Source of the DNA: a virus
Virus record (IMG/VR): IMGVR_UViG_3300025769_000406
Location: 1-34,696 of that record
DNA length: 34,696 nucleotides
Strand: one strand, 5' to 3'
Positions 452 through 34,696 of the stretch are shown one piece after another. Each line of letters begins with the position of its first letter. The stretch's first letter is position 1. Under the pieces are notes generated by a model, which ran no database searches, was not told the origin of the DNA, and was given only the letters and a program-made list of their open reading frames with translations. Made by a program: the position numbers and the translations under genes.

Positions 452-480
452 TTGACAATATGCACACAGTGCATTATTTA
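452..480 (+). promoter_or_regulatory. Rightward early promoter for the 518-3969 operon
   Basis: TTGACA (452-457), a 17-base spacer and TATTTA (475-480) make a good sigma-70 promoter. Transcription would start near 487, so the mRNA would begin almost exactly at the first CACTAGCAA leader motif (489) and run into the first gene at 518. A second TTGACA at 341 has no convincing -10 at normal spacing. Confidence 0.7.
461..473. promoter_or_regulatory. Palindromic operator candidate between -35 and -10
   Basis: TGCAC ACA GTGCA is a perfect 5-bp inverted repeat with a 3-base centre, lying wholly in the spacer of the 452-480 promoter. A protein bound there would block RNA polymerase. Both XRE-type proteins of this phage (3754-3969 and 4992-5189) are candidates; which one, if either, is unknown. 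Confidence 0.4.
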
Positions 481-488
481 GGGGTTAT

Positions 489-509
489 CACTAGCAATCA
501 GATAAGGAT
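489..509 (+). repeat. Leader cassette copy 1 (CACTAGCAA...AAGGA)
   Basis: CACTAGCAATCAGATAAGGA precedes the ATG at 518 and supplies the AAGGA ribosome site. It lies at the predicted 5' end of the operon mRNA. Confidence 0.7.
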
Positions 510-517
510 GATTAATT

Positions 518-724
518 ATGTTTTCAGTAAAATTTGACACAGAACAAGAGTGGGACTTGCCAACCATTGAGGCCAAATGCGACAGCGCACAGCAAGCCTT
601 GGCTTTGATCGGCAGTCTTAAACAGGATTTTGGCTTTTCAGCTAATGAGCATAACGAATGGTTTTTGGTCACTCGTTTATCAGACGGTAAATCATGCCAT
701 CCATCAGTAAAGAAAGGGGCGTAA
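518..724 (+). CDS. Small early protein of unknown function, 68 aa
   Basis: This is the first gene of the left early operon, behind a clear promoter and an AAGGA ribosome site. I do not recognise the family. The product is small, soluble-looking and mildly acidic, with a central helix-prone stretch (QQALALIGSLKQDFGF) and a C-terminal half with strand-like character. It has no membrane segment, signal peptide or cysteine cluster. It may be one of the many small host-interaction proteins phages make first, but that rests on position only. The stop is followed at once by the next start. Confidence 0.75.
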   Translation: MFSVKFDTEQEWDLPTIEAKCDSAQQALALIGSLKQDFGFSANEHNEWFLVTRLSDGKSCHPSVKKGA

Positions 725-735
725 TCATGACAAAG
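715..735 (+). repeat. Duplicated translation start region, copy A
   Basis: AGGGGCGTAATCATGACAAA, followed by G, recurs at 933-953 with a single G/A difference. It contains the ribosome site, the stop codon of one gene and the start codon of the next, so two successive genes (727 and 945) begin with nearly identical start regions. Confidence 0.8.
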
Positions 736-942
736 CCAACTCTTATCATCAAGCAAAGAAGCCATGTAACGACTGTAAAGTTGAAAGGCGTTCCCTTTGC
801 TTATGTAGTCGCAACAAATGAAGACCTTGCAAAGCATGGCATCATTAACGTGATCAAAGCCAAGATCAAACGCTGCAATGAGCTTGGCTATAATAATGTA
901 GTCGGCAAATATGAAATGCTTTTGACAGCGTTAGGGGCATAA
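727..942 (+). CDS. Small early protein of unknown function, 71 aa
   Basis: The start is taken at 727 rather than the in-frame ATG at 694, because 727 directly follows the stop of the previous gene and has an AGGGG ribosome site. The protein is basic and opens MTKPTLIIKQRSHVTTVKLK, a strand-rich region, followed by a helical Lys/Arg-rich half. I do not recognise it. Its size and charge would fit a nucleic-acid or protein-binding accessory factor, but no motif supports that. It is cotranscribed with 518-724 and 945-1130. Confidence 0.75.
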   Translation: MTKPTLIIKQRSHVTTVKLKGVPFAYVVATNEDLAKHGIINVIKAKIKRCNELGYNNVVGKYEMLLTALGA

Positions 943-953
943 TCATGACAAAG
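933..953 (+). repeat. Duplicated translation start region, copy B
   Basis: This is the second copy of the 21-base start region described at 715-735. It spans the end of gene 727-942 and the ATG at 945. The downstream proteins both begin Met-Thr-Lys but then differ, so only the start region is shared. Confidence 0.8.
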
Positions 954-1130
954 ACAACAATCACTGATCTGGCCTTTATGTTTACCGGCTTTGTTTTCAT
1001 CATGGCCTTGCCAGCAAGCTTTGCCTTGCTTGCCAACGGTTATGATCTCTTGAGCCTTGCTGTCTTCATGACTGGCGGCTTGGCTTTCCTTGGCAGCATG
1101 GCAGCAATGCTTATCACTGCCGATAAATAA
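945..1130 (+). CDS. Small membrane protein with two transmembrane segments, 61 aa
   Basis: Two hydrophobic stretches, about residues 7-29 (LAFMFTGFVFIMALPASFAL) and 35-57 (LLSLAVFMTGGLAFLGSMAA), are joined by a short loop around Asn-Gly-Tyr. This predicts a helical hairpin in the inner membrane. No enzyme motif is visible. An early-operon position argues against a lysis holin and suggests effects on the host envelope, such as superinfection exclusion. That is inference. It starts two bases after the previous stop with an AGGGG ribosome site. Confidence 0.75.
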   Translation: MTKTTITDLAFMFTGFVFIMALPASFALLANGYDLLSLAVFMTGGLAFLGSMAAMLITADK

Positions 1131-1134
1131 TCAA

Positions 1135-1150
1135 CACTAGCAAAAAGGAT
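1135..1150 (+). repeat. Leader cassette copy 2
   Basis: CACTAGCAAAAAGGAT ends nine bases before the ATG at 1159 and contains its AAGGA ribosome site. Confidence 0.75.
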
Positions 1151-1158
1151 TTAATACT

Positions 1159-1488
1159 ATGACAAACGCAAAACAAAATTGTTGGCATATCCAATACAAG
1201 CTTAATGGCGAATGGAAAACAGAAACGTCTATGCCATTGACGCAATGCCGGTCAATCAATGGCAATCCTGTTAATCCTCATGGCATCAATGACGATCTGG
1301 AATTTTGCATTAATGAGGCACGCTGCGCCATGCTGGTAAACTATAAATCAAAATGGCAAGTTGGCGGCAATATAACCGAATGGCGTTATATTCCTGCCTA
1401 CGATCATTTCAACCGCAATGCTTGGTCTGATCAATCATGGTCATTTAAATTTGATCATATCGTTATCAATGGCACTGAAGAGGCTTAA
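1159..1488 (+). CDS. Early protein of unknown function, 109 aa
   Basis: No family is recognised. The protein is rich in Trp, Asn and Cys for its size: Trp at 9, 19, 66, 75, 88 and 93, and Cys at 8, 30, 50 and 56. It looks like a compact soluble strand-rich domain. The four cysteines are not spaced like a standard zinc finger. It starts behind leader cassette 2. After its stop comes a GCAA-loop hairpin (1498-1515) and then cassette 3, so it sits in its own cassette-bounded unit. Confidence 0.75.
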   Translation: MTNAKQNCWHIQYKLNGEWKTETSMPLTQCRSINGNPVNPHGINDDLEFCINEARCAMLVNYKSKWQVGGNITEWRYIPAYDHFNRNAWSDQSWSFKFDHIVINGTEEA

Positions 1489-1497
1489 TGAGCCGAA

Positions 1498-1515
1498 ACC
1501 AGCCGCAAGGCTGGT
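1498..1515 (+). other. RNA hairpin with GCAA loop
   Basis: ACCAGCC-GCAA-GGCTGGT is a perfect 7-bp stem closed by a GNRA-type tetraloop, ten bases after the stop codon of 1159-1488. It is preceded by GCCGAAA, as is the hairpin at 2836-2853, which has a different stem but the same loop. No T-run follows, so it is not an ordinary terminator. It may protect a 3' end after processing or limit readthrough. Confidence 0.6.
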
Positions 1516-1531
1516 CTGTCATAAGACAAAA

Positions 1532-1548
1532 CACTAGCAAAAAGGAAT
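1532..1548 (+). repeat. Leader cassette copy 3
   Basis: CACTAGCAAAAAGGAAT, nearly identical to copy 2 for 15 bases, provides the AAGGA ribosome site for the ATG at 1556. Confidence 0.75.
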
Positions 1549-1555
1549 TGGCACA

Positions 1556-2323
1556 ATGAAACCATTAAGCAAAACTGAATTAGCTGTTTTAGCTGGCAAG
1601 TCTGTTTATCATAACTTGCGCGTCAAGTCTGTTAATGACGGCATGGCAAAAACAGAACGCGCCATTAAGAAAAGTACAAATGTAAAGCTTGGCAAGCGCG
1701 TCACCAAAGGCCAGTTAAAAGGCTTTCCCATATTCACATTGACGCTAGAAGAACGCGCCACTTGTCCGGCTTCGTGCATTCATTGGGCTGATTGTTACGG
1801 CAATAACATGATGAACGCCACCCGATATGCCGGTGATGATGCATTGTTGAAGCAAATCGAATCCGATTTGACGCATTACCAAGCCAAATATCCGAATGGC
1901 TTTCTTGTCCGGTTGCACGTTCTTGGCGACTTTTTCAGCGTTGCCTATGTCGCGCAATGGGCAAAATGGCTGTCAATGTTCCCAGCTTTGCACGTTTATG
2001 GCTATACTGCTAATCAATATAACGCGATTGACAGCAAGGAACGTGCCATTGGTGAGGCTTTGTTATCACTACGCATGGCTTGCGGCATTCGCTTTGCTGT
2101 TAGGTTTAGCGGCTCATATACTGATAGCTTTGCAGCATTATCTAATGACGATAGCCGAAGCAATGACTTGTTAGCTGATAAACAAGCCTTTCTTTGTCCT
2201 ACGCAAATCAGCAAAGAGACTGGCAAGCTTGCGAAGAAAGACGAAGAGACTCTTGTGCCAGATTGCGGCTCTTGTGGTTTATGCTGGCAAGCATCAAAGC
2301 CAGTCGTGTTTTTAACCCATTGA
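1556..2323 (+). CDS. GP88-like cysteine-cluster protein, 255 aa
   Basis: This is the largest protein of the left operon. It has a basic N-terminus, then ATCPASCIHWADCYG (Cys 70, 74, 80), a core LVRLHVLGDFFSVAYV (about 118-132) and LHVYGYTANQ (145-154), and a C-terminal CGSCGLCW (Cys 237, 240, 243) plus Cys 214. This layout resembles phage and plasmid proteins of the GP88 type, whose function is not established. The cysteine groups at both ends and the alternating strand/helix core suggest a barrel-like fold binding a metal or iron-sulfur cluster. A radical-SAM-like relationship is speculation. It starts behind leader cassette 3, and a short membrane protein follows after 14 bases. Confidence 0.8.
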   Translation: MKPLSKTELAVLAGKSVYHNLRVKSVNDGMAKTERAIKKSTNVKLGKRVTKGQLKGFPIFTLTLEERATCPASCIHWADCYGNNMMNATRYAGDDALLKQIESDLTHYQAKYPNGFLVRLHVLGDFFSVAYVAQWAKWLSMFPALHVYGYTANQYNAIDSKERAIGEALLSLRMACGIRFAVRFSGSYTDSFAALSNDDSRSNDLLADKQAFLCPTQISKETGKLAKKDEETLVPDCGSCGLCWQASKPVVFLTH

Positions 2324-2337
2324 GAAAGGCTAAACAA

Positions 2338-2490
2338 ATGATCAAAGGTTTTTTGATTGGCTTGGCGTTTATCGCGTTTAATTTCATGATCGTCTTTCTG
2401 TTTATTAACATCATGACAGGTTGCGGCTTGGTCAATGATTGGAACGCGCCACAATGCGTAACACCGGCTCAATTGATAGGGCTAGGCTAA
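2338..2490 (+). CDS. Short single-pass membrane protein, 50 aa
   Basis: The start at 2338 is chosen because a GAAAGG ribosome site lies just before it; the longer in-frame reading would overlap the GP88-like gene by far. Residues 4-27 (GFLIGLAFIAFNFMIVFLFI) form one strong transmembrane helix, followed by a short tail with two cysteines. It is not a recognised family. A holin role is unlikely from its early position. It is followed by a GCAA-loop hairpin and leader cassette 4. Confidence 0.65.
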   Translation: MIKGFLIGLAFIAFNFMIVFLFINIMTGCGLVNDWNAPQCVTPAQLIGLG

Positions 2491-2497
2491 AACACTA

Positions 2498-2524
2498 CCA
2501 TTGACAGCGCAAAGGCTGTCAGTG
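2498..2524 (+). other. RNA hairpin with GCAAAG loop
   Basis: CCATTGACAGC pairs with GCTGTCAGTGG over 11 bp (one G-T wobble) around the loop GCAAAG, eight bases after the stop of 2338-2490. The stem includes TTGACAGC and GCTGTCA, the same words as the operator at 5210-5224, though widely separated here. No T-run follows, so simple termination is unlikely. Confidence 0.6.
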
Positions 2525-2551
2525 GCTCTTAAATCGCCAGCAATGGCATAA

Positions 2552-2572
2552 CACTAGCAAGAGGATAAAGGA
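2552..2572 (+). repeat. Leader cassette copy 4
   Basis: CACTAGCAAGAGGATAAAGG precedes the ATG at 2575, with AAAGGA as the ribosome site. Confidence 0.7.
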
Positions 2573-2574
2573 CA

Positions 2575-2817
2575 ATGGCAAGCGTAAACAAGCAAGGCAT
2601 CTATCACATTCAAGAGTGGATTGATAAAAATCAAGATTACAATCCGCAAGTTTTTGACCTATGGGCTAACGGTATCGCGTCAGAAATAAATCAATGTGCA
2701 AGTTTAGACGATGACATAAAGAGAAATGGCGAATTTGTATATGAAGTAGGGCTAAAGGATGCGCGTGGGTATGTAATGACAATATCGCTAGATGAAAATC
2801 ATTTTAATATTAACTAG
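2575..2817 (+). CDS. Small early protein of unknown function, 80 aa
   Basis: No family is recognised. It is acidic, with a helical N-terminal half (IYHIQEWIDKNQDY) and a C-terminal half that reads as two or three strands (NGEFVYEVGLK; GYVMTISLDE). Its last codons are Ile-Asn-stop, and the TAG stop is itself part of leader cassette 5. The neighbouring gene 2915-3316 ends the same way, so the cassette appears to have been copied together with the end of the preceding reading frame. Confidence 0.75.
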   Translation: MASVNKQGIYHIQEWIDKNQDYNPQVFDLWANGIASEINQCASLDDDIKRNGEFVYEVGLKDARGYVMTISLDENHFNIN

Positions 2818-2830
2818 CAAAAGAGAAAGG
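2812..2830 (+). repeat. Leader cassette copy 5, not followed by a gene
   Basis: AACTAGCAAAAGAGAAAGG starts inside the stop codon of 2575-2817. Instead of a start codon it is followed by three adjacent hairpins (2836-2887) and then by cassette 6. Confidence 0.75.
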
Positions 2831-2835
2831 CCGAA

Positions 2836-2887
2836 ACGCAAGGCAACTTGCGTCCAGCGATAGTGTCGCTGCTGACGAGGCCGTCAG
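2836..2887 (+). ncRNA. Three back-to-back RNA hairpins
   Basis: Three perfect stems lie almost without spacers: ACGCAAG-GCAA-CTTGCGT (2836-2853), CAGCGA-TAGTG-TCGCTG (2855-2871) and CTGACG-AGGC-CGTCAG (2872-2887). The array lies between leader cassettes 5 and 6 in a 97-base gap with no reading frame. The first stem shares the CCGAAA lead-in and GCAA loop of the hairpin at 1498-1515, but its stem bases differ while pairing is kept. This supports selection for RNA structure. Possible roles are processing or stability control within the operon, or a separate small RNA. Confidence 0.55.
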
Positions 2888-2888
2888 T

Positions 2889-2910
2889 AACTAGCAAAAG
2901 AGAGAGGGCA
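2889..2910 (+). repeat. Leader cassette copy 6
   Basis: AACTAGCAAAAGAGAGAGGG plus CA, identical to copy 7 over 24 bases, supplies the GAGAGG ribosome site for the ATG at 2915. Confidence 0.8.
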
Positions 2911-2914
2911 AACC

Positions 2915-3316
2915 ATGCTTAACAAAACAGAAAAAAGAGAAATGGCGATTGTTGAAAACCTTTCGCCAAATGTCGGCACGTTACGACTGACCAAAACAAT
3001 GCTTGATAAGCATATCATTGATGCAAATTCCAGTATCAGGCGGCTTGCGTTATTGCTTGGTGTTGATATGGAAGAAATGACTAATGGCGATAAAGTGACA
3101 ATCCAAGGCCAGTATCAAGATGGCACGCCATGCAACGTGAATTTCTATCGTACGACAATGCGATCAGATCGGCGCGTCAGTCTATCGGGCATCAAGAAGC
3201 AAGCCATAGCTGGCGATCTTTTGGCCTTATCCTATAAGAGAAATGAGCAAGGCGATTATATCTTGATCATTAACGTAACAGCGGCAGCGCAATCGCGCAT
3301 TGCTCAAATTAACTAG
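2915..3316 (+). CDS. Early protein of unknown function, 133 aa
   Basis: No family is recognised. The protein is basic. Its N-terminal part (TLRLTKTMLDKHIIDANSSI) is helical, and the middle (GDKVTIQGQYQDGTPCNVNF) reads as a beta-barrel-like run of strands. That order would fit a small nucleic-acid-binding fold, but this is only a guess. Leader cassette 6 gives its ribosome site, and its TAG stop lies inside cassette 7. Confidence 0.75.
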   Translation: MLNKTEKREMAIVENLSPNVGTLRLTKTMLDKHIIDANSSIRRLALLLGVDMEEMTNGDKVTIQGQYQDGTPCNVNFYRTTMRSDRRVSLSGIKKQAIAGDLLALSYKRNEQGDYILIINVTAAAQSRIAQIN

Positions 3317-3332
3317 CAAAAGAGAGAGGGCA
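3311..3332 (+). repeat. Leader cassette copy 7
   Basis: Identical to copy 6 for 24 bases. It starts within the stop codon of 2915-3316 and serves the ATG at 3337. Confidence 0.8.
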
Positions 3333-3336
3333 AATT

Positions 3337-3654
3337 ATGTCTAAGAAATCAAATCAAAAATTTCTGGAAAACCAGCACAAAAGAATAGAAATCATCAGCC
3401 ATTTATCGGCTATAGCTGGCCCATATGACGCGGCAATGCTTAATATGAGCATTATTGCATGGCAAAACGACAGTGGCGAATACTGGCTGCGTCTGCTGGA
3501 TATGGATGGACAAGGCGATAAACTGCTTATTCATATTGACAGCGAAACAGCATCAAGCAGGGATCGTTACTATGTCCATCAATATATTTCAGAACATGGC
3601 ATTGACCATGCAATCAATAGCTGGCCTGAGTTTATGGAAGATGACGCTGCATAG
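3337..3654 (+). CDS. Early protein of unknown function, 105 aa
   Basis: No family is recognised. A basic, helical N-terminus (KKSNQKFLENQHKRIEIISH) is followed by a strand-rich acidic part (EYWLRLLDMDGQGDKLLIHI) and an acidic end (EFMEDDAA). There is no membrane segment or cysteine. It uses leader cassette 7. Its stop is followed by a degenerate cassette lacking CTAGC and by a 10-bp hairpin. Confidence 0.75.
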   Translation: MSKKSNQKFLENQHKRIEIISHLSAIAGPYDAAMLNMSIIAWQNDSGEYWLRLLDMDGQGDKLLIHIDSETASSRDRYYVHQYISEHGIDHAINSWPEFMEDDAA

Positions 3655-3670
3655 AAAAAGAGAGAGGGCA
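3653..3670 (+). repeat. Degenerate leader cassette copy 8
   Basis: AGAAAAAGAGAGAGGGCA keeps the purine-rich half of copies 6 and 7 but has lost CTAGC. It starts in the stop codon of 3337-3654 and, like copy 5, leads into a hairpin and not into a gene. Confidence 0.55.
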
Positions 3671-3675
3671 AAAAA

Positions 3676-3706
3676 AGGCGGTGCAGAATTGGCTAATGCA
3701 CCGCCT
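3676..3706 (+). other. RNA hairpin, perfect 10-bp stem
   Basis: AGGCGGTGCA and TGCACCGCCT pair perfectly around an 11-base loop (3686-3696). It lies between cassettes 8 and 9 with no T-run after it. An A-run precedes it, but on the minus strand the following sequence is only moderately T-rich. It fits the pattern of one hairpin in each long gap of this operon. Confidence 0.6.
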
Positions 3707-3710
3707 AGCC

Positions 3711-3724
3711 CACTAGCAAAGAGG
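3711..3724 (+). repeat. Leader cassette copy 9
   Basis: CACTAGCAAAGAGG lies 30 bases before the ATG at 3754, farther than the other copies. The ribosome site actually used is probably GAAAGG near 3741-3746. Confidence 0.65.
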
Positions 3725-3753
3725 ACACCGTAAAGGTAAAGAAAGGTATAGCT

Positions 3754-3969
3754 ATGGAAACGACAAAGATCAAGCTGGAAAGATTGCAGCTAGGAATAAG
3801 CCAAACAAAGATGGCTCAAAGGCTAGGCATTGGTTTGCGCTGTTATCAATATTATGAATCTGGTGAAAGGCAAATCCCAAAGCCTGTAATCATGTTACAT
3901 CAAGCCTTAAAGAGAAACGCCATTTTAGAAAAGAATGAAAAATACTATTTAGAAAGGACAAAAATGTAA
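3754..3969 (+). CDS. XRE/Cro-type helix-turn-helix DNA-binding protein, 71 aa
   Basis: This is the last gene of the left early operon. Residues 6-48 match an XRE-type fold: LERLQLGISQTKMAQRLGIG covers helices 1-3 with the classic SQTKMAQRLG turn, followed by RCYQYYESGERQIPKPV. It probably binds a short palindrome as a dimer and acts as a Cro-like or antirepressor-type regulator. Nearby candidate sites are 4064-4078, 461-473 and 5210-5224; which is bound is unknown. A strong terminator follows at 4001. A second XRE-type protein is encoded at 4992-5189 on the other strand. Confidence 0.85.
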   Translation: METTKIKLERLQLGISQTKMAQRLGIGLRCYQYYESGERQIPKPVIMLHQALKRNAILEKNEKYYLERTKM

Positions 3970-3980
3970 TAAAACTATTC

Positions 3981-3996
3981 AATGCCGCGTGGCATT
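3981..3996 (-). terminator. Hairpin that may end leftward transcripts
   Basis: AATGCC-GCGT-GGCATT is a perfect 6-bp inverted repeat. On the minus strand it is followed by GAATAG and then TTTT, a weak intrinsic terminator that could stop the 5189-4131 operon and the short transcript predicted from 4114-4141. The T-run begins six bases after the stem, so efficiency is doubtful. Confidence 0.35.
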
Positions 3997-4000
3997 ACTA

Positions 4001-34165: not shown

Positions 34166-34560
34166 TATCCCTCAATAGCCTCCGAAGTCTCCCAAACAAT
34201 GCGAACCGTACCGTCACTAACCTCTACACCAGCCCTACTCTTAGCCTCACCATAGCGGTCAGATATAATCTTTGATGCCTTCCACCTTACATGAGTAGCA
34301 TAATCACGCAAGACATTAGGATCATAGTCCTTACGCTTGTGAAGGGCATCACTGTACAACTCATCAAGTTCCTCTAACGCCTTCTCAGCACTCTGCCGCT
34401 GCGCTGTACGAATAGCACTCTCAAACTCGCTATCCTCTCCCATACGCTTGTAAAGCATAGAACGATTAACATTAGCTAATGAACAAGCCTGTACTAAGCT
34501 ATGACCATCTGTCACTAACTGCTCTACTTGCTCTTGCTTCACTTTCGTCAACTTTGCCAT
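34165..34560 (-). CDS. terS: Terminase small subunit, 131 aa
   Basis: An N-terminal helix-turn-helix (QLVTDGHSLVQACSLANVNR, then SMLYKRMGEDSEFESAI) is followed by a helical oligomerisation region (QSAEKALEELDELYSDALHK) and YATHVRWKASKIISDRYG, a frequent feature of small terminases, then a strand-rich end. It binds the packaging site and presents DNA to the large subunit. It is the first late gene, with GAGG as ribosome site, and its first 38 bases lie in the terminal repeat. The 118 bases to the large terminase gene carry repeats and a possible promoter. Confidence 0.85.
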   Translation of the reverse strand: MAKLTKVKQEQVEQLVTDGHSLVQACSLANVNRSMLYKRMGEDSEFESAIRTAQRQSAEKALEELDELYSDALHKRKDYDPNVLRDYATHVRWKASKIISDRYGEAKSRAGVEVSDGTVRIVWETSEAIEG

Positions 34561-34696
34561 AGAACCTCACTGCTGGCTGTGTGTTGGAAGGTAGTATTTA
34601 ACACATGAAATGAGAGGCCGCGATCGTGCGGGGTATCGCCCTTTTTTTTGCCCCCGCATGGCCTGACATTTTGCATTGCAGCAAGAATATATTGCC
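34523..34696. repeat. Right copy of the terminal direct repeat
   Basis: Matches positions 1-175 with one missing A in the T-run (eight T at 34642-34649). It includes the start of the small terminase gene and its upstream GC-rich inverted repeat. Joining the two ends gives a circular unit of about 34,522 bases. Confidence 0.9.

Follow-up and report, generated by a model that had tools for sequence, protein, structure and literature searches.

Two phage hammerhead ribozymes between early genes, and helices that compete with their active folds

The early genes of a virus contig of 34,696 bases (IMG/VR record IMGVR_UViG_3300025769_000406; called the window below, meaning the whole stretch analysed) have hairpins between them whose stems differ in sequence and still pair. 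The first-pass annotation placed two of these hairpins at 1498-1515 (ACCAGCC-GCAA-GGCTGGT) and 2836-2853 (ACGCAAG-GCAA-CTTGCGT), positions that proved exact, and the question raised by the locus is to which RNA they belong and what that RNA may do between genes. The window is probably a complete phage genome, because a near-perfect direct repeat is found at both of its ends. Its major capsid protein has 77% identity to that of pelagiphage HTVC010P and its head-tail connector is of the podovirus type; the phage is of marine type, with the two structures placed intergenically. On the + strand, the region of about 480-4000 holds the early genes, and many of these start behind a leader such as TAACTAGCAAAAGAGAGAGGG. 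Their intergenic space, 410 nt in all, contains three perfect hairpins of at least 7 bp, against 0.037 expected from dinucleotide shuffles.

Two hammerhead ribozymes in the window

Judged by core, stems and model scores, both hairpins are stem III of two complete hammerhead ribozymes (Table 1). The core CUGANGA, the GAA and an H17 at the predicted cut are present in both, as are three helices with A15.1-U16.1 closing stem III and with 6, 4 and 7 bp in stems I, II and III, respectively. Ribozyme 1 (AUGGCA-CUGAAGA-GGCU-UAAUG-AGCC-GAA-ACCAGCC-GCAA-GGCUGGU-C/UGUCAU, the slash marking the predicted cut) is type I, since stem I is open, and ribozyme 2 (GGCC-GAA-ACGCAAG-GCAA-CUUGCGU-C/CAGCGA-UAGUG-UCGCUG-CUGACGA-GGCC) is type II, since stem II is open, in the naming of PMC10085705. 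The hairpins reported earlier are thus real, but each is only one stem of a larger three-stem structure, and the label "paralogous" misleads because they belong to different circular permutations, although the catalytic core is common to both. The sequence CCGAA does precede both hairpins, but the longer lead-in CCGAAA proposed for them consists of the end of stem II, the GAA of the core and the A with which stem III begins to pair. Nor does a stop codon precede the whole of ribozyme 1: the TAA of the upstream gene sits inside the loop of its stem II.

Table 1. Positions of features in the window and of a further structured RNA in related contigs
Feature	Position	Strand	Remark
Terminal direct repeat	1-175 and 34523-34696		near-perfect; 174-175 bases, one-base length difference near a T run
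ORF upstream of ribozyme 1	1159-1488	+	last codons and TAA stop (1486-1488) inside ribozyme 1
Ribozyme 1, type I	1469-1522	+	predicted cut between 1516 and 1517; C17 at 1516
Ribozyme 1 stems	I 1469-1474/1517-1522; II 1482-1485/1491-1494; III 1498-1504/1509-1515	+
Ribozyme 1 core	1475-1481; 1495-1497	+	CTGAAGA; GAA
Competing hairpin	1517-1528	+	TGTC-ATAA-GACA; 5' end of ribozyme 1 downstream product
GP88-family gene (Pfam PF17338)	1556-2323	+	downstream of cut 1; leader after cleavage 39 nt
Third hairpin	2498-2525	+	11-bp stem, loop GCAAAG; followed by GCCA-GCAA-TGGC, 2535-2546; not a hammerhead
ORF upstream of ribozyme 2	2575-2817	+	stop TAG 2815-2817
Leader-like direct repeat	2809-2835	+	ATTAACTAGCAAAAGAGAAAGGCCGAA; before ribozyme 2
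Ribozyme 2, type II	2829-2882	+	predicted cut between 2854 and 2855; C17 at 2854
Ribozyme 2 stems	II 2829-2832/2879-2882; III 2836-2842/2847-2853; I 2855-2860/2866-2871	+
Ribozyme 2 core	2833-2835; 2872-2878	+	GAA; CTGACGA
Anti-core hairpin	2872-2887	+	CTGACG-AGGC-CGTCAG; mutually exclusive with active ribozyme 2
Leader repeat	2886-2912	+	AGTAACTAGCAAAAGAGAGAGGGCAAA; follows ribozyme 2 and includes a ribosome-binding site
ORF downstream of cut 2	2915-3316	+	60-nt leader after cleavage, starting with two tandem hairpins
GGY...RAATGCCC RNA	L025:674-741; L037:5904-5971; L295:4890-4966; L407:4169-4245		directly 5' of ACACTAGCAA leader

Covariance models were trained on 21 type II and 24 type I phage sequences, from which the window and its close relatives were left out. 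The type II model scores ribozyme 2 at 57.5 bits (E 1.2e-14) and the type I model scores ribozyme 1 at 51.2 bits (E 3e-14), E-values that are rough because calibration was short and that come from training sequences selected for pairing stems; the 34.7 kb of the window hold no further credible match to these models, the next best having an E-value of 0.39. A scan of 446 kb for hammerhead cores found them only in gene sense, and found none in reversed-sequence controls of the same 446 kb. Rfam at gathering thresholds gives no match in the whole window and so misses both ribozymes: RAGATH-1-hammerhead (RF03152) aligns to ribozyme 1 (1428-1521) with 23.2 bits, far below its threshold of 56.3, and ribozyme 2 falls below the cut-off of Hammerhead_II (RF02276), which is a curation threshold and not a structural feature. 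Siblings in L070, L061 and L074 pass RF02276, the one in L070, which has the same tail subtype as ribozyme 2, with 38.6 bits against a threshold of 37. By their sequences the two ribozymes are further members of a known group, the phage hammerheads, with predicted cleavage, and curated RNA searches miss such compact members.

The third hairpin, described as related and as ending at 2524, lacks a hammerhead core and matches neither covariance model, so that a degenerate hammerhead was rejected; its loop is as reported, and its stem is in fact 11 bp (2498-2508/2515-2525). Together with the hairpin that follows, it forms a two-hairpin element (2498-2546, CCATTGACAGC...GCTGTCAGTGG CTCTTAAATC GCCA...TGGC) that is kept in L007 with changed loops, is found in L324 and L350 too, and has no match in Rfam. 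A small ORF that would run from the TAATG of loop II as far as the start of GP88 was discarded: by eye it is open in the window, but relatives do not keep it intact (in L297 it stops early). Ribozyme 2 is bordered on both sides by direct copies of the gene leader, and the next gene (3308-3334) has the same leader and no ribozyme, as if a ribozyme module had been inserted. Another strong hairpin, of 10 bp (GGCGGTGCA...TGCACCGCC, 3677-3708), lies between early genes and has no T-run.

Compensatory change in related loci and hammerheads in other phages

A search with the GP88 protein gave 52 loci, of which 11 hold a hammerhead by the covariance models (2 type I and 9 type II, counting L003, which is 100% identical to the window in the GP88 gene and carries both of its ribozymes). 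A pattern of core plus loop (CTTAATGAG, CGAAAC, GTCTG), in which pairing in stems I and III is not required, found seven loci, including the near-identical L296 and a longer copy of the L041 contig. In an alignment of ribozyme 1 from seven loci (the window, L270, L294, L295, L297, L298 and L043), 98.3% of cells are paired, compared to 24-37% when the partners are slid; both sides have changed in two pairs of stem I, one of stem II and three of stem III, the core bases are invariant except N7, and stem I has two unpaired cells out of 42. Selection on RNA structure, which the first-pass annotation had proposed to check with covariance models and homologous loci, is supported by these results: related loci keep stems I, II and III by compensatory changes around an invariant core, so that in the seven aligned loci the refuting condition set there, stems not maintained in homologous loci, is decided in favour of structure. 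The GCAA loop, in contrast, is no conserved element, because the loop sequence varies among homologues (GAAA, GATG, ATAG and others).

The ribozyme 1 family occupies the end of different upstream ORFs (that of L270 compared to that of the window and L295), whose final residues and stop codon it encodes, for example NDTDEA and a stop, which suggests that the module is shuffled between genes. A search of isolated phages for the ribozyme of the window yielded nothing beyond weak matches of chance level; Streptomyces phage Wentworth has two type II matches, which lack the anti-core tail. The ribozyme is also absent from the stretches read of roseophages CRP-361 and CRP-114, near relatives by the GP88 gene, the CRP-114 record beginning at that gene. 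Some loci carry another conserved structured RNA, GGY-[hairpin]-[long hairpin]-RAATGCCC, which in L025 and L037 fills the slot held by a hammerhead in sister phages. Both of its hairpins vary with pairing kept; Rfam gives nothing at threshold in L025 and L037 and only chance-level matches in L295; and it is a candidate for a different ribozyme.

Pattern scans of IMG/VR for both types, whose figures refer to the matches listed, indicate that both are abundant in the intergenic regions of phages and tend to sit between co-directional genes. By crude ORF calls, the downstream start codon follows the type I cut at a median of 32 nt and the type II cut at 57 nt; the upstream stop precedes these cuts by medians of 51 and 30 nt, respectively, which places it at or inside the 5' part of the ribozyme. 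Among the matches listed, one phage contig (L074) has as many as nine type II hammerheads in 8.5 kb. A contig of a Rhodobacteraceae metagenome-assembled genome (L404) has two tailed type II hammerheads with T-A at N7 and tail.

Competing helices and what they may do

Directly after stem II of ribozyme 2 comes GTCAG, so placed that CUGACG of the core can pair with CGUCAG, and likewise a type II tail NTCAG can pair with the catalytic CUGANG. The agreement between N7 and the tail is informative because the catalytic fold leaves no core position free except N7. In a dereplicated set of 58 ribozymes, obtained by a scan with free bases at N7 and tail and from the tailed ribozymes of the collected loci, the two positions pair without exception (47 C-G, 11 U-A), compared to a mean of 40.2 and a maximum of 50 in 10,000 shuffles. 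A looser test on other stem II sequences found pairing in 48 of 51; one exception (L147) is a T-G wobble, and the other two (L403, L377), in which no hammerhead stems can be seen by eye, matched the pattern by chance and serve as natural negative controls, L403, from a bacterial genome contig, having been rejected as a tailed hammerhead for its lack of stems and its unpaired N7. In a sample of 121 type II ribozymes not chosen for the tail, an anti-core helix of at least 5 bp occurs in 18, compared to 0.65 (maximum 5) with shuffled tails and 8.2 (maximum 14) with tails swapped between ribozymes. A pseudoknot of at least 4 bp between loop I and a tail right after stem II is found in 3 of these 18 but in 56 of the other 103. 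Ribozyme 2 lacks a pseudoknot so defined, as CGTCAG against the core occupies that place, and in the window, judged by eye, its loop I UAGUG could pair over 4 bp with ACUA further downstream (2890-2893). Tails at other spacings also match the core (L147, L158, L124, L138).

Members of the ribozyme 1 family carry, behind the downstream stem I strand, a complement of that strand. The resulting hairpin is kept in all seven aligned loci, with one double change from U-A to C-G; the 4-bp hairpin of ribozyme 1 taken alone is within chance, and only conservation in the family speaks for it. Competing hairpins of at least 4 bp are present in 40 of 125 dereplicated type I ribozymes, about threefold the 13-17 expected, and with one ribozyme counted per contig in 23.8 against 8.7 expected (maximum 15). 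Only a minority of phage hammerheads show the competing helix, about 15% of those of type II and roughly a quarter to a third of those of type I; that it occurs in different permutations of the ribozyme points to a common purpose.

The core, the stems, their compensatory changes, the competing helices and the covariation of these helices are established at the level of sequence. A function that would account for them is that the early transcript carries two hammerheads, one of each type, each cutting in cis between two genes, so that the upstream message would end in the stem III hairpin and the downstream message would gain a new 5'-OH end. The competing helix beside each ribozyme would then capture the ribozyme strand left on the downstream product, by pairing of the tail NTCAG with CUGANG of the core in type II and of the downstream complement with the 3' strand of stem I in type I. 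Such refolding would make the cut irreversible and would give the new 5' end a hairpin, on it or beside it, followed by a ribosome-binding site free of structure. By nearest-neighbour energies, in which stabilisation by the core and by tertiary contacts is not counted, the hammerhead fold of ribozyme 1 and its competitor are predicted at -21.4 and -21.1 kcal/mol, the hammerhead and anti-core folds of ribozyme 2 at -23.9 and -25.9 kcal/mol, and the median difference between the folds is -0.8 kcal/mol among 43 tailed type II ribozymes. Because the folds are nearly equal in predicted energy, loss of one partner by cleavage should tip the balance; and because the cut divides the hammerhead fold between two molecules but leaves the competing hairpin whole in the downstream one, cutting followed by refolding is favoured. 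In the predicted folds, the first base of the downstream product is paired in 42 of the 43 tailed type II ribozymes. Taken whole, with its predicted cleavage, presumed order of steps and presumed protection of mRNA ends, this explanation is fairly probable.

For ribozyme 2 the anti-core fold is predicted to be slightly favoured already before cleavage, and the tail could therefore equally hold the ribozyme inactive. The competing helix would then form first, and translation, temperature, a helicase or a ligand would free the ribozyme, making the splitting of the transcript a regulated event. Its being a local hairpin, predicted to be as stable as the hammerhead or slightly more so, fits such a switch, as does the upstream stop inside ribozyme 1, by which translating ribosomes would unfold this ribozyme; but in type II the tail is made only once the whole ribozyme has been transcribed, an order that favours cleavage ahead of inhibition, and no conserved sensor sequence is seen beside the tail, so that a switch of this kind is rather unlikely. 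By the position of that stop, translation of the upstream gene should also affect cleavage by ribozyme 1. Less likely still is that the operon is cut constitutively into shorter mRNAs while the tail has another role, such as a protein-bound DNA palindrome or simply a hairpin at the 5' end. That prophage hammerheads chop operons has been proposed before (PMC3088659), and many phage hammerheads have no tail; however, a DNA site would not need to track core base N7 across sequence contexts, types I and II differ in sequence with the same effect at the RNA level, and the match to the core persists in tails at other spacings. It is scarcely credible that the hammerhead match is due to chance and the hairpins serve as ordinary terminators, or for RNase processing or stabilisation, for though stable and intergenic they have no T-run behind them, and they come with two full cores with all invariant bases at E ~1e-14 each, covariation in all three stems and empty reversed-sequence controls.

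A wider reading is also fairly probable: a widespread subclass of phage hammerheads would carry a dedicated core-pairing strand, making each one a built-in two-state device that cuts a single time and then takes itself apart and caps the new mRNA, or that is kept inactive until released. If true, two-state hammerheads would be an unreported regulatory layer in phage operons. The core-competing helix is a concrete handle on function, as swappable N7/tail pairs would separate cleavage from the later steps.

Comparison with known systems

Hammerheads of phages and prophages, type II hammerheads and the cutting of long phage transcripts into gene-length mRNAs have been published; activity was seen in 14 of the 18 consensus hammerheads tested, and prophage arrays cleave in vitro (PMC3088659). 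Why bacteria and phages carry hammerheads is considered an open question (PMC6155905). Ribozyme 2 has the strand order, core and stems of RF02276 (Perreault et al. 2011, PMC3088659), but in the published type II hammerhead the tail forms a pseudoknot with loop I and the Rfam model draws the tail unpaired, whereas the tail of ribozyme 2 pairs with the catalytic core. Unlike RF03152, ribozyme 1 overlaps the end of the upstream coding sequence and has a competing downstream hairpin. The prophage arrays and the hammerhead of haloviruses HF1/HF2 likewise place several ribozymes between phage genes, in an early-gene position, and in HF2 a mapped transcript 5' end lies near the cleavage site; a refolding tail is not described for them, nor is refolding or misfolding mentioned, in the main text of the same paper (PMC3088659). 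The competing tail hairpin looks new among the open-licence papers searched, and an earlier description elsewhere is possible.

Viroid hammerheads have alternative inactive folds. Their likeness to the phage ribozymes is co-transcriptional cleavage that competes with such folds (PMC3185496). Viroids differ in being circular RNA replicons, in which the competing pairing is with the hammerhead region of opposite polarity and there is no dedicated tail. RiboJ-type insulators are synthetic, derived from a satellite RNA hammerhead, and their hairpin and ribosome-binding site give a defined structured 5' end to the mRNA. They resemble the arrangement proposed here in that a hammerhead is followed by a hairpin and a ribosome-binding site, but the hairpin of the insulators does not pair with the ribozyme.
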